Assembly (NCBI GenBank): GCA_020628065.1
Contig: JAHDFR010000002.1
Span: forward strand, 100,630-144,295
Reading direction: 5' to 3'
DNA from: Acidimicrobiales bacterium
Lineage (GTDB): Bacteria; Actinomycetota; Acidimicrobiia; Acidimicrobiales; SZUA-35
Length of the DNA stretch: 43,666 nt
In this document: one piece after another, positions 6,635 through 14,187 of the stretch
Numbering within the stretch: position 1 is the first letter of the stretch
Layout of the letters: each line of letters opens with the position of its first letter
Notes under the pieces: model-generated
Told to the model about the DNA's origin: nothing
What the model saw: the letters and a program-made list of their open reading frames with translations, nothing else
Databases searched by the model: none
Position numbers and translations under genes: made by a program

Positions 6635-6919
6635 TCAGTCGGATTCGGCCGGGGGAGCGCCGTCGGCCACCAAACGGTCGGCGAACTGATCCAACTGATC
6701 CAAGATCATGGGATCGAGAACCCGACGCTTGCTGGCCAGTCCTGACTTGATTCGGGTGTAGACCGATGCCTCGTGATCGCAAAGCTGACACTTGTCGAGG
6801 TGCTGGGCGACCTTTCTGGCGGTCTCAGCGTCTACCTCACCGTCGAGGTGGGCTTGGAGAACCTCGAGCACCTCTCCGCACGACATTTCGCCTCGAAGGC
6901 GTCGTAGCAATTTCATCAT
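6635..6919 (-). CDS. Zinc-binding anti-sigma factor, RsrA-like
   Basis: This 94-residue cytosolic protein should hold the neighbouring ECF sigma factor inactive and release it when its thiols are oxidised. The ZAS zinc ligands are plain: Cys14, His40, Cys44 and Cys47 (HLDKCQLC). Their spacing (26, 4 and 3 residues) equals that of RsrA from Streptomyces (Cys11, His37, Cys41, Cys44), which senses disulfide stress; the match supports redox sensing by family knowledge. No membrane segment is present. The ATG follows the sigma gene's stop after one base, so translation is coupled and stoichiometric. A second ATG directly after the first could also serve as start. RshA-type anti-sigma factors are the alternative name. 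Confidence 0.85.
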   Translation of the reverse strand: MMKLLRRLRGEMSCGEVLEVLQAHLDGEVDAETARKVAQHLDKCQLCDHEASVYTRIKSGLASKRRVLDPMILDQLDQFADRLVADGAPPAESD

Positions 6920-6920
6920 G

Positions 6921-7544
6921 TCACCTCACCTCCGAGTCGAGTCCAACAGTTGACAGGTGGTCTCTGATGCGTCCTCTGGCCCGATGTAGGCGGCTCATCA
7001 CCGTTCCAACCGGTACCTCGAGCACCTCGGCCGCTTCCTGATAGGCAAGACCGTTCAGGTCCACCAGCTCGACAACCTGACGAAAGTCGCTTGAGAGCAA
7101 AGCGAACGCATCCTCGATGGCCGCATCCAGCTGCGGTTCCACCACGAGGGTTTCCGGGTCGTCGGTGTCGGCGAAGTCAGTTGATCGCTCGAAGGTCAGG
7201 TCCGGATCGTTGAGCAGATCCGGCGTCTTCTTGCGCACGCGATTGATGTTGGCGTTGCGCATGATCGTCATCAGCCATGCCCGTGGATAACGGCCGTCGA
7301 ACCGGTCGAGCGATCGGAACGCTCTAACCAGCGTGTCCTGGACGAGATCCTGAGCGTCGGCGTCGTTTCGAGTGAGCGACCATGCCGTCCGGTAGAGAAT
7401 GTCCATCTCCGGGCGGATGTACTGCTCAAACTTGGCTTGTGCATCAAGTCCGTTGGATGGGCTGGGTGCATCAACCGAGACCTCGGCCGCTGAATCTGCT
7501 TCTGTAGCCGAGCTTGTGTCGGGTCTGTCCATTACTGCAACCAT
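6921..7544 (-). CDS. ECF RNA polymerase sigma factor (SigR/SigH-like)
   Basis: The 207-residue protein has a short acidic N-terminal tail. Sigma region 2 follows at about residues 38-105 (DAQDLVQDTLVRAFRSL, then RAWLMTIMRNANINRVRKK), then an acidic linker. Region 4, the -35 binding helix-turn-helix, is near the end (YQEAAEVLEVPVGTVMSRLHRAR). Its partner is the ZAS anti-sigma factor encoded one base downstream. A GGAAT-N18-GTT promoter immediately upstream matches the SigR/SigH consensus, so the gene very likely controls itself. The ATG at 7544 lies about ten bases after the GTT, so this transcript may be leaderless. Region 2 is not an exact copy of Streptomyces SigR as I remember it, so I assign the family but not the orthologue. 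Confidence 0.85.
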   Translation of the reverse strand: MVAVMDRPDTSSATEADSAAEVSVDAPSPSNGLDAQAKFEQYIRPEMDILYRTAWSLTRNDADAQDLVQDTLVRAFRSLDRFDGRYPRAWLMTIMRNANINRVRKKTPDLLNDPDLTFERSTDFADTDDPETLVVEPQLDAAIEDAFALLSSDFRQVVELVDLNGLAYQEAAEVLEVPVGTVMSRLHRARGRIRDHLSTVGLDSEVR

Positions 7545-7638: not shown

Positions 7639-8172
7639 TCAGATCCACTCCACGGTCCAACCAGTGTGGTGTTCGCCGTCGTAGGGCATCGTTCCGTGAA
7701 ATTGCTCTGGGCGTTCGTCAAAGATGAAAGGAACAAAGAGGTGATCCCCCGGCCACATGGGAAGGGCGGCCAGGGCGTCGGCTTGGCCGGCGCAGGCGGC
7801 TAGAAGTCGGGTGCGGGGAATCCACTCAAGATCGCCTTCGTCGTTGCTGGAGGGCGGTTCTCCGGTCCATGCCGTGACCAGGAACATGAACCCCAGCCAG
7901 TCTTCCCGTCGGGGACCGAAGTTGGACCAGGTGACCGTGCCTCGAAGAGCCATGTCGGTCACGTCGATGTCAGCCTCTTCTTTCAACTCTCTCTTCATGC
8001 CGGCGGTGATGGACTCATTCCGTTCGACCTTGCCCCCGAGTCCGTTGACCTTGCCGAGGTGATCATCGTCGGATCGTTTGTTACGTCGCACCATCAGTAC
8101 GTGATCGCTGCTGCTGTCCCAGATGTACCCGAGAGTCCCCACCAGGGGTAGGAACCGTTCGTTGTCAGTCAT
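7639..8172 (-). CDS. Nudix hydrolase, MutT/MTH1-like
   Basis: The protein has a complete Nudix box, GGKVERNES followed by RELKEEADI, fitting GX5EX7REUXEEXGU. The pattern LVGTLGYIWD then LMVRRNKRSDDDHLGKVNGLGGKVE resembles 8-oxo-dGTP diphosphatases, which hydrolyse oxidised nucleotides before they enter DNA. Substrate choice cannot be read from sequence. I start at the ATG at 8172 because AGGGTG precedes it; an ATG at 8196 would add eight residues. The gene lies 94 bases upstream of the redox sigma factor on the same strand, and nucleotide sanitation would fit a thiol-oxidation response. Confidence 0.85.
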   Translation of the reverse strand: MTDNERFLPLVGTLGYIWDSSSDHVLMVRRNKRSDDDHLGKVNGLGGKVERNESITAGMKRELKEEADIDVTDMALRGTVTWSNFGPRREDWLGFMFLVTAWTGEPPSSNDEGDLEWIPRTRLLAACAGQADALAALPMWPGDHLFVPFIFDERPEQFHGTMPYDGEHHTGWTVEWI

Positions 8173-8245
8173 TTGGATCACCCTACCGTCACCCATGAAC
8201 CGCCAGAAATAGCGGACTATCCGACCACGAGGCCCCTAATCTGGC

Positions 8246-8251
8246 TAGTCT
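8246..8251 (+). promoter_or_regulatory. Candidate -10 box for the hup transcript
   Basis: TAGTCT fits the TAGNNT -10 form repeated in this window. Transcription would begin near 8258, just ahead of the structured leader. I see no convincing -35 element. Confidence 0.35.
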
Positions 8252-8270
8252 GACCACTGGCCTGTCATTT

Positions 8271-8340
8271 GATGACACGCTGCAAACCCCGGCAACAACG
8301 CCGGTTTCGGTCCACCTGGATCGACAAGCAGCGTGGCATT
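8271..8340 (+). ncRNA. Candidate three-way-junction RNA upstream of hup
   Basis: The segment folds into three stems. P1 pairs CACGCTGC (8276-8283) with GCAGCGTG (8328-8335), and past one mismatch it adds ATG (8272-8274) with CAT (8337-8339). P2 pairs AAA+CCGGC (8284-8293, two bases bulged) with GCCGGTTT (8300-8307). P3 pairs CGGTCC (8308-8313) with GGATCG (8318-8323) around an ACCT loop. TGTCAT (8263-8268) could instead pair with ATGACA (8272-8277), opening the base of P1. I do not recognise a known riboswitch class. It could be a hup leader or a separate small RNA. Confidence 0.5.
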
Positions 8341-8350
8341 GTGATTAGGA

Positions 8351-8368
8351 GCGCCATACCCTCGGCGC
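8351..8368 (+). promoter_or_regulatory. Small hairpin between the leader RNA and the hup start
   Basis: GCGCC (8351-8355) pairs with GGCGC (8364-8368) and is followed by ACTTT. It lies 28 bases before the hup Shine-Dalgarno sequence and could act as the expression platform of the upstream structured RNA. Confidence 0.35.
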
Positions 8369-8407
8369 ACTTTGGTAAGCAGGTCTCGTAAAGATCAAGG
8401 AGTTCGC

Positions 8408-8689
8408 ATGAACAAGTCTGAATTGGTTGACGCAGTTGCCGATCGCACCGGCGTCAGCAAGAAAGATGTCGACGCTTCGATTTCAGGAATGTTTGATGTT
8501 GTCGCCGACACCGTGTCCGGTGGCGGCGATGTCACCATCCAGGGCTGGGTCAAGTTCGAGCAGGTGGAGCGTAAAGCTCGCACCGGTCATAATCCACAGA
8601 CCGGTGAGAAAATCGCCATTCCCGCCTCCAAGGCGGCAAAGGTGAGCGCGTTGACCAAGCTCAAGGCTGCCGGCAAGGCATCCGTCTAA
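8408..8689 (+). CDS. hup: DNA-binding protein HU
   Basis: This 93-residue nucleoid protein binds and bends DNA as a dimer. It starts MNKSELVDAVADRTGVSKKDV, the usual HU N-terminal helices. It contains the beta-arm sequence VERKARTGHNPQTGEKIAIPASKA, whose conserved Pro intercalates in DNA, and ends with SALTKLKAA. There is no lysine-rich C-terminal tail like that of the long mycobacterial and Streptomyces HU forms. The ATG at 8408 has AAGGAG at 8397-8402; the longer frame starting at 8372 is rejected because it lacks this site. A 13-bp hairpin terminates the gene. The region upstream contains an unusual structured RNA. Confidence 0.95.
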   Translation: MNKSELVDAVADRTGVSKKDVDASISGMFDVVADTVSGGGDVTIQGWVKFEQVERKARTGHNPQTGEKIAIPASKAAKVSALTKLKAAGKASV

Positions 8690-8741
8690 CTAACCTCGAT
8701 TTCTGTGGCGGGCCTTTCGGCCGGCCTCGAAGTTCGAACCT

Positions 8742-8772
8742 GAACGTGAGCACCCTTGTGGTGCTCACGTTC
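8742..8772 (+). terminator. Strong hairpin terminator after hup
   Basis: GAACGTGAGCACC (8742-8754) pairs perfectly with GGTGCTCACGTTC (8760-8772) around a five-base loop. The 13-bp stem lies 52 bases after the hup stop and before fabZ. It lacks a T-run, as is common for actinobacterial terminators. Confidence 0.75.
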
Positions 8773-8803
8773 GCGTCCGGGCTCGGATCGGCGCATGAAT
8801 CTG

Positions 8804-9302: not shown

Positions 9303-10475
9303 CTAGCTCGCTGGGGTCAGCACGATCGTGCCGTTGTGTCCACCGAATCCGAAGCTGTTCGACAGTGTCGGGCCCGGCGTCCACGGTCGAGCCTCGGTTA
9401 CCAGGTCAATCTGTGGAAGATCAGGATCCGGCTCTCCAAGCCCGAATGTCGGGGGAATCAACCCGTTGCGCATTGACTGAATGGCTGCGGCAGCCTCCAA
9501 CGCCCCCGCCGCTCCCAGCGCATGTCCGGTCACACCCTTGGTCGATGTCACCGCCGGGCCACCACTGGTTCCGAACACCTTGGCCAGTGCCTCGGCCTCG
9601 GCGGCATCGTTCAGCGGGGTCGAAGTACCGTGGGCGTTGATATGGACCACATCCGACGGAGATATGCCGGCGTCGGCCATGGCCATTTCCATGCACCGTA
9701 TGGCCCCTGAACCGCCGGGGGAGGGCGCGGTGATGTGGTGGGCGTCGGCCGTGCTGGCAGCACCAACGAGAAGGGCGAGAATCTCTGCTCCTCGAGCTCG
9801 TGCCTTGTCGGCGTCCTCCAAAACCAAAACAGCAGCCCCTTCGGACATGACAAATCCGTTGCGTCGCTGATCAAAAGGCCTCGACTCGCCGGTGTTTGAC
9901 AGGGCGGTCATATTGCTGAATCCGGCGATCGACGTCGGGCAGAACGGTGCCTCACTCCCTCCGGCGAGAGCGGCGTCAACCCGACCGGCCCGAATAGCGT
10001 GGAGGGCGGCGCCGATGGAATGAGTTCCGGCAGCGCAGGCGGTCACGATGGTCTCGCAAGGTCCCTGCATGCCGTAGCGCATCGATACCGCGGCACCGGC
10101 GGCGTTGGGCATCATCATGGGGATGAGGAACGGCGAGACTCGCCGATCCCCTTTCTCATGACGAGTCACGATCTGGGTTTCGTTGGTGCTGATTCCGCCT
10201 ATGCCGGTTCCGATGAACACGCCGACCCGACTTGGGTCATGCGTGAGTTCCCCGGCCTGTTCGACAGCCTCAGCGGCTGCGGCCAGTGCGAACTGGGTGA
10301 AGCGGTCAGACCGTCGAGCCTCTTTGGGATTGGCAAAGTACGGCGCCGGGTCCCAGTCGGGTACCTTCCTGTCGCCGTGCTCCGGTTCCCGTAGAAGACC
10401 GTCCCAAAACGCCGAGGCACCGACGCCGCAGGGCGCCACTACCCCGAGGCCGGTGACGGCAACCGCCGTTGCCAT
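9303..10475 (-). CDS. fabF: 3-oxoacyl-ACP synthase II FabF
   Basis: FabF condenses malonyl-ACP with the growing acyl-ACP chain in FAS-II. The 390-residue thiolase-fold protein shows the Cys-His-His triad: Cys147 in TIVTACAAGTHS, His282 in NAHGTSTPLND and His318 in KGVTGHALGAAG, with Lys313 in the last motif. GFGGHNG near the C-terminus is the usual glycine-rich loop. It is slightly shorter than most FabF proteins (about 410), with nothing essential missing. The ATG directly follows the acpP stop with no gap, so the two are translationally coupled. The first residues, AVAVTGLGVVAP, support this start. It is the last gene of the minus-strand fab operon. Confidence 0.95.
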   Translation of the reverse strand: MATAVAVTGLGVVAPCGVGASAFWDGLLREPEHGDRKVPDWDPAPYFANPKEARRSDRFTQFALAAAAEAVEQAGELTHDPSRVGVFIGTGIGGISTNETQIVTRHEKGDRRVSPFLIPMMMPNAAGAAVSMRYGMQGPCETIVTACAAGTHSIGAALHAIRAGRVDAALAGGSEAPFCPTSIAGFSNMTALSNTGESRPFDQRRNGFVMSEGAAVLVLEDADKARARGAEILALLVGAASTADAHHITAPSPGGSGAIRCMEMAMADAGISPSDVVHINAHGTSTPLNDAAEAEALAKVFGTSGGPAVTSTKGVTGHALGAAGALEAAAAIQSMRNGLIPPTFGLGEPDPDLPQIDLVTEARPWTPGPTLSNSFGFGGHNGTIVLTPAS

Positions 10476-10715
10476 CTAAAGTTTCCCGACAACGAGATCG
10501 TAGGCGGCGCCCACGGTCTCGATGCCTTCGAGCTCTTCCTCGTCGACGGAAACGCCGAACTCTTCTTCGAGCGCCATGACCAGCTCGACCAGGTCAAGGC
10601 TGTCGGCGTCGAGATCCTCGGCGAACCGCGCCTCGCGGGTCACCTTGGCGGCATCGACGGAGAGCACCTCCACGGCGCACTTCTGAAATGCTTCGAACTT
10701 TGCGTCATCACTCAC
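10476..10715 (-). CDS. acpP: Acyl carrier protein
   Basis: This small acidic protein carries acyl chains on a phosphopantetheine arm attached to the serine of the DSL motif, here [10 protein letters not shown]. The length of 79 residues and the acidic helices ([18 protein letters not shown]) are typical. The start is a GTG with a strong GGGAGGA site six bases upstream. fabF begins in the very next base after the stop. Unlike in many actinobacterial fab operons, fabG lies between fabH and acpP. A 137-base gap upstream, with a hairpin, leaves room for an extra promoter that would raise ACP above the enzymes. Confidence 0.95.

Positions 10716-14101: not shown

Positions 14102-14187
<86 letters not shown>

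Follow-up and report, generated by a model that had tools for sequence, protein, structure and literature searches.

Introduction

To our knowledge, how bacteria set the amount of HU, their main DNA-packing protein, is poorly understood beyond a few models. In an Acidimicrobiales bacterium (GenBank assembly GCA_020628065.1), the HU gene hup lies in a stretch of 43,666 nucleotides on contig JAHDFR010000002.1 (positions 100,630 to 144,295), which was analysed as a whole and is called the window here; positions below count from its first nucleotide. The region directly upstream of hup can fold into a three-way junction. Does this region control hup, and does it do so as RNA or as DNA? An earlier note on the sequence had described the junction and read it as an aptamer with an expression platform, leaving room for a new leader element, an HU autoregulatory site or a free small RNA. 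The observation was confirmed and the interpretation is partly supported. We put at about 55% the probability that a lineage-specific structured hup leader evolved between two older, helically phased DNA boxes that serve a looping regulator of hup; we favour such a regulator over a riboswitch. The available parts of the literature matches listed held no description of this leader element or of the box pair at hup, and none of the matches listed dealt, by title and start of abstract, with HU gene control in Acidimicrobiia.

Results

A stable three-way junction precedes hup

The hup gene (8408–8689; Pfam PF00216, E 3.8e-27) is preceded by the Shine-Dalgarno sequence AAGGAG (8397–8402), whose GGAG is present in 24 of 24 aligned loci; the gene, the fold, the promoter elements and the boxes described below all lie on the forward strand. 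A divergent Nudix gene lies upstream. HU homologues were placed in 130 of 148 genomes, and the regions 5' of hup were read for 70 loci. Genes for an ECF sigma factor and a zf-HC2 anti-sigma factor occupy 6635–7544 of the window, and an ECF sigma gene adjoins hup in many loci of the window's family. At the start codon, GTTCGCATGAAC (8402–8413) can form a 4-bp hairpin with the A and U of the codon in its loop, and GTTC 5' of the start codon is common across the family.

The fold spans 8261–8349 and comprises an outer set of pairs between two repeats (box 1 and box 2, see below), the stems P1b and P1, and the hairpins P2 and P3, which together make a three-way junction; it was found in three species only. 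Stems P1–P3, reported at 8271–8340, are present there. P1 has 8 bp (8276–8283 with 8328–8335; whole stem 8276–8335) and encloses P2 (8289–8304) and P3 (8307–8324). Its extension beyond the mismatch A8275·G8336 holds 4 bp with a terminal G·U (8271–8274 with 8337–8340) rather than the 3 bp first described. The 5-bp core of P2 (8289–8293 with 8300–8304) stood, whereas its three further pairs (8284–8286 with 8305–8307) are possible but absent from the energy minimum. P3 has the 6 bp ascribed to it (8308–8313 with 8318–8323, including one G·U), or 7 bp when U8307–A8324 is counted. The minimum free energy of 8258–8370 was −53.0 kcal/mol, compared with −35.0 ± 3.6 kcal/mol for 200 dinucleotide shuffles (z −5.0), none of which was as good, so the thermodynamic stability exceeds chance. 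The same minimum also pairs 8261–8268 with 8341–8349, an outer stem absent from the earlier note.

The fold is shared by three closely related species

A DNA search of 99 genomes found matches in three: the window's own, G009 (80% identity) and G007 (79%). As to conservation of the stems, P1–P3 are kept in these two nearest species, but no shared fold emerged from the remaining eight hup-bearing members of the genus. In folds of the full-length leader, P1–P3 remain in all three species; the outer box 1–box 2 pairs are partly replaced in G009 and wholly in G007. Three pairs in P1 and P1b changed on both sides and still pair, namely 8273–8338 (P1b), 8278–8333 and 8280–8331, and one P1 pair, 8283–8328, is broken in G009. 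In the two relatives, P2 shows changes only to G·U pairs, and P3 retains its form with a shifted junction.

The three-species element gave alifold z scores of −4.5 to −4.9, matched by 0 of 1000 column shuffles. With a structure derived from the same sequences, the proportion of paired cells was 94.6% and the number of two-sided changes was 4; 6 of 500 shuffles reached each of these values. Of 889 overlapping windows placed elsewhere in the same three sequences, 61 also had four or more two-sided pairs, so the covariation is weak alone. In the three-way alignment of 5.3 kb, divided into 316 windows, the element came next behind two windows over hairpins 3' of hup, by alifold z and by mean single-sequence z; its mean single-sequence z was −3.4 to −3.5 and its SCI 0.79–0.83, with 68–72% of columns identical in all three species. 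A window over neighbouring genes (10452–10544) reached an alifold z of −3.74. Because these two controls temper the evidence from conservation, we regard selection on the leader fold in the three-species lineage as probable and put it no higher. The two strong hairpins 3' of hup (8691–8788) score best of all structures in the 5.3 kb alignment, with a mean z of −5.9 to −6.4, and presumably form the hup terminator, though the consensus scan did not flag them.

Beyond the three species, the other eight genus members with hup yielded no consensus structure (alifold z −0.04), and none emerged in the wider family. The covariance-model search proposed earlier was run on 41 genomes; strong matches came only from the same three loci, the fourth match had an E value of 0.70, and the filters of such a search can lose weak matches. 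A conserved hairpin in the short untranslated region of the relatives was considered as another candidate and found no support (genus z −0.73; none in the family).

No shared expression platform was seen

The hairpin at 8351–8368, assigned to the platform, is present in the window, but it contains broken pairs in both near relatives (alifold z +1.34 for 8351–8410). The alternative pairing of TGTCAT exists in the window as a perfect 6-bp match with ATGACA; the perfect form is absent from G009 and G007. In the window this alternative costs 7.7 kcal/mol (−35.3 versus −43.0 kcal/mol). The local alternative hairpins have −4.2 kcal/mol in the window, −2.7 kcal/mol in G009 (4 bp) and −4.7 kcal/mol in G007, there in another register. 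Rfam models, run at gathering and permissive thresholds, gave chance-level matches only at the element and none at the 10 genus loci; apart from these, the sole Rfam match in the window is a tRNA at 14102–14184. A scan of 8100–8800 for terminator-like sites returned only 8243–8262 (0.4 expected), which lies before the fold and overlaps the proposed transcription start, and nothing 3' of the fold. Neither a terminator nor a sequestered ribosome site was seen coupled to the junction, and no aptamer core was seen conserved across many species. With no shared platform in the three species and no consensus fold in the other eight genus members, the layout of aptamer plus expression platform was not borne out.

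Promoter-like elements upstream of hup differ between the lineage and the family

An element that may serve as −35, TATCCGAC (8218–8225), stands 20 bp before TAGTCT (8246–8251), the −10-like element of a putative upstream hup promoter; TCTGGCTAGTCTGAC does not vary among the three close species. The arrangement TATCCGAC-N20-TAGTCT (8218–8251 in the window) recurs with the same spacing in 4 of 10 genus relatives, 190–193 nt 5' of the hup start codon; the carriers are G009, G007 and two relatives that keep the downstream promoter. The consensus scan recorded no −35/−10 pair at this position. From these elements we infer a transcription start near 8256–8259 and a leader of about 150 nt. TAGTCT was also considered as part of a Nudix promoter, which is less likely: locus L040, one of the two relatives that keep the downstream promoter, retains the element although no Nudix match was found there, which favours assigning it to hup.

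In a 24-locus alignment, most family members carry a −35-like TTGACW where the window has the degenerate GTGGCA (8333–8338), and G009 and G007 share with the window this degenerate state of the downstream −35; TTGAC-N18-T....T had no match in L004–L006. TACCCT (8357–8362) could be a leftover −10 of the downstream promoter, since all three species have TACCYT, with no conserved −35. In the family, the hup promoters lie some 50 nt 5' of the start codon and appear to be of an unusual type: the second base of the −10 is C or G instead of the usual A, and this position stands at a fixed 17 bp from TTGACW.

Paired DNA boxes flank the fold and are more widespread

Two direct repeats of TTGTNATTYG flank the fold in the window and lie upstream of hup in most family members. 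Box 1 (CTGTCATTTG, 8262–8271) and box 2 (TTGTGATTAG, 8339–8348, 77 bp after box 1) both contribute to the base of the RNA fold in the window. Each has one mismatch to the consensus; operator function may therefore be weakened in the window. In most family members box 2 falls within the 17-bp spacer of the promoter-like TTGACW-N17-TCNNCT. There the stretch between the boxes lies upstream of this promoter and so would act, if at all, as DNA. When the stretch between the boxes was folded for single loci, z was mostly close to 0, the exceptions being L014 (−3.4) and L013 (−2.0), whose folds differ.

Of 32 family loci, 30 could be anchored (L018 was dropped at a contig end and L115 for want of an anchor). 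Both boxes were found within one mismatch in 22 of the 30, and in four more (L029, L114, L120 and L123) the pair stood at 76–78 bp with two mismatches in one box; the remaining four (L025, L027, L028 and L121) have neither. Although the scoring of anchored loci broke ties towards 78 bp, a motif search without spacing preference picked the same places in the four two-mismatch loci. The spacing at hup in this family is 76–79 bp, with an SD of 0.9 bp over the 22 loci, and the median identity of the sequence between the boxes is 39% (72 equal-length pairs). A few other loci have one strong and one weak copy. These data show two copies of one site at the promoter, kept and lost together. The strict box pair occurred seven times in 39 genomes, every time directly upstream of a placed hup gene; a looser promoter-box pattern had background matches besides hup, four of them in the window's own genome.

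Two further arrangements were seen at these loci. Several genus members (L007–L014) have a half-palindromic element near CCGCWCYRNTGGAGCGG between the boxes, seemingly in either orientation across the family, which could be a third binding site. L025 and L028, which lack TTGTNATTYG, share a different, mutually inverted pair, with TTGTCCCC upstream and GGGGACGA within the spacer of the promoter, which would fit a joint change of box and regulator.

Box spacings in other families mostly fit helical phasing

Among 38 loci of other families, 10 had any box and four had two (L020, L132, L141 and L026, from families f54, f27 and f24). Since loci of f54 and f27 had already shown two boxes, these two families were examined further. 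In four families together, 62 of 76 loci hold both boxes above a fixed score: 24 of 31 in the window's family (f1), 1 of 1 in f24, 21 of 27 in f54 and 16 of 17 in f27. In shuffled sequences the mean was 0.2 loci; with 100 column-permuted motifs it was 0.95, and the maximum 20. The motif was built from boxes of the window's family, and f54 and f27 (37 of 44) are therefore the fairer test. Strong boxes were absent from all six loci of genus g282 and from three loci of genus g5.

In f54 and f27 the downstream copy is often at, or just past, the −10, and the spacings are 87–88, 97–99, 109 and 119–123 bp; genus g285 holds both 98 and 109, one turn apart. Three outliers at genus level, 53, 95 and 113, are out of phase. 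The resultant length of the spacings peaked at periods near 10.5 bp, with 0.75 over loci and 0.71 over genus medians; the many values near 78 in the window's family lift it whatever the period (genus medians still give 0.51 at 8 bp). For 12 values, with that family collapsed to one, medians for the other genera and the three outliers kept, the best value for periods of 10 to 11 was reached in 1.2% of 2000 uniform draws (p 0.012, in a post hoc test). By this post hoc test the spacings are in helical phase. Steps near 10.5 bp suggest the operators of a DNA-looping regulator: phased spacing is the pattern expected of a pair of operators that share a face of the helix, and is hard to explain by RNA.

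Search for a regulon and a regulator

The window's own genome contains 23 exact single boxes, compared with 7 for a reversed control pattern. Despite this excess no clear box regulon emerged, as 19 of the 23 lie within open frames of at least 300 codons; the other four (L197, L199, L210 and L218) are ambiguous. No regulator of the boxes was found in these searches. TTGACWTTGTSATTYG was found in 0 of 246 genomes of the phylum, among which, of those listed, only the window's own comes from its family, and its copy is degraded.

Discussion

We propose that the hup control region has two layers, an older one of DNA and a younger one of RNA. The DNA layer would consist of two direct 10-bp boxes, mostly set whole helical steps apart: an upstream copy and a second copy within or next to the core promoter. 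One putative regulator would bind both, bridge them in a short loop and thereby tune hup transcription. In the three-species lineage the downstream −35 appears to have decayed, and transcription probably begins near 8256–8259, from the upstream TAGTCT promoter. The stretch between the boxes would have become a three-way-junction leader of about 90 nt with both boxes in its base. Its most likely role is in cis: a stable structure at the 5' end that tunes the stability or translation of hup mRNA, and not a ligand switch.

The DNA layer resembles the looping repressors of the E. coli gal, lac and ara systems, where one box likewise occurs twice, at the core promoter and upstream, and where the differences between spacings are mostly whole turns of the helix. 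Like the hup boxes, araO2 and araI1 are direct repeats. The hup boxes differ in that the box is an asymmetric 10-mer, the regulator is putative and the target is the HU gene itself. The gal operators are about 113 bp apart, and the spacing in the window's family is shorter than this. HU assists gal looping. A bold but improbable extension is that HU senses its own level: the regulator would bridge the phased boxes over 78 to 120 bp, the tight loop would need bending by HU, and rising HU would shut off hup; in the window's lineage the same stretch would have turned into a junction RNA, which might likewise be bound by HU.

Several other explanations of the fold were weighed. Only the DNA boxes might matter, the inverted arms having arisen by drift in GC-rich DNA. 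The absence of a shared fold from eight other genus members is in keeping with such an incidental origin, as are the 61 of 889 control windows that match the two-sided changes of the fold and the z of −3.74 over neighbouring genes. Against this, the element is the best window after the hairpins 3' of hup by both alifold and mean single-sequence z, 0 of 1000 column shuffles matched it, and three compensated pairs in P1/P1b face a single broken P1 pair; we consider an incidental fold rather unlikely. HU might instead bind the three-way junction of its own leader and lower translation or mRNA stability. The fold adjoins hup and contains a junction, and binding by HU has been reported for DNA junctions with three and four arms (PMC5683647) and for rpoS mRNA and DsrA RNA (PMC6523023), according to the portions available of these papers. 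The rpoS and DsrA case would offer HU a route to a structured leader; it concerns other organisms and targets. However, the fold was found in three species only, compared with HU genes in 130 of 148 genomes; the three species showed no common way in which the fold would sequester the ribosome site; and HU binding is described as not sequence specific in the same portions (PMC6523023, PMC5683647). Autoregulation through the leader RNA is accordingly doubtful.

A riboswitch for HU is the reading that the layout had first suggested. The junction does sit in a leader, an alternative pairing is possible in the window, and a stable multi-stem leader before a single gene is what catalogued structured leaders and riboswitch candidates look like, as far as the available text of PMC2864571 describes them. 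Unlike those candidates, the hup leader was found in three species only and has no conserved ligand core; the main text of PMC2864571 has no mention of histone-like, nucleoid, DNA-binding protein HU or Acidimicrob. With the core not seen beyond three species, the platform hairpin and exact alternative pairing not conserved, no terminator-like site past the fold in the scan and no Rfam match at the element, a riboswitch is extremely improbable. A free small RNA made from the upstream promoter would account for a stable fold close to a possible start site. No evidence for one was found: the only terminator-like site lies before the fold and none follows it, and conservation continues into the ribosome site and the start codon of hup. 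We judge it very unlikely.

The preferred reading is therefore a structured leader within an older pair of operators. The box pair was seen here only at hup and is mostly helically phased over several families of Actinobacteria, which makes control of the HU level testable by spacing mutants. More broadly, hup seems to be an instance of a folded mRNA leader that evolved within a DNA control element older than itself.
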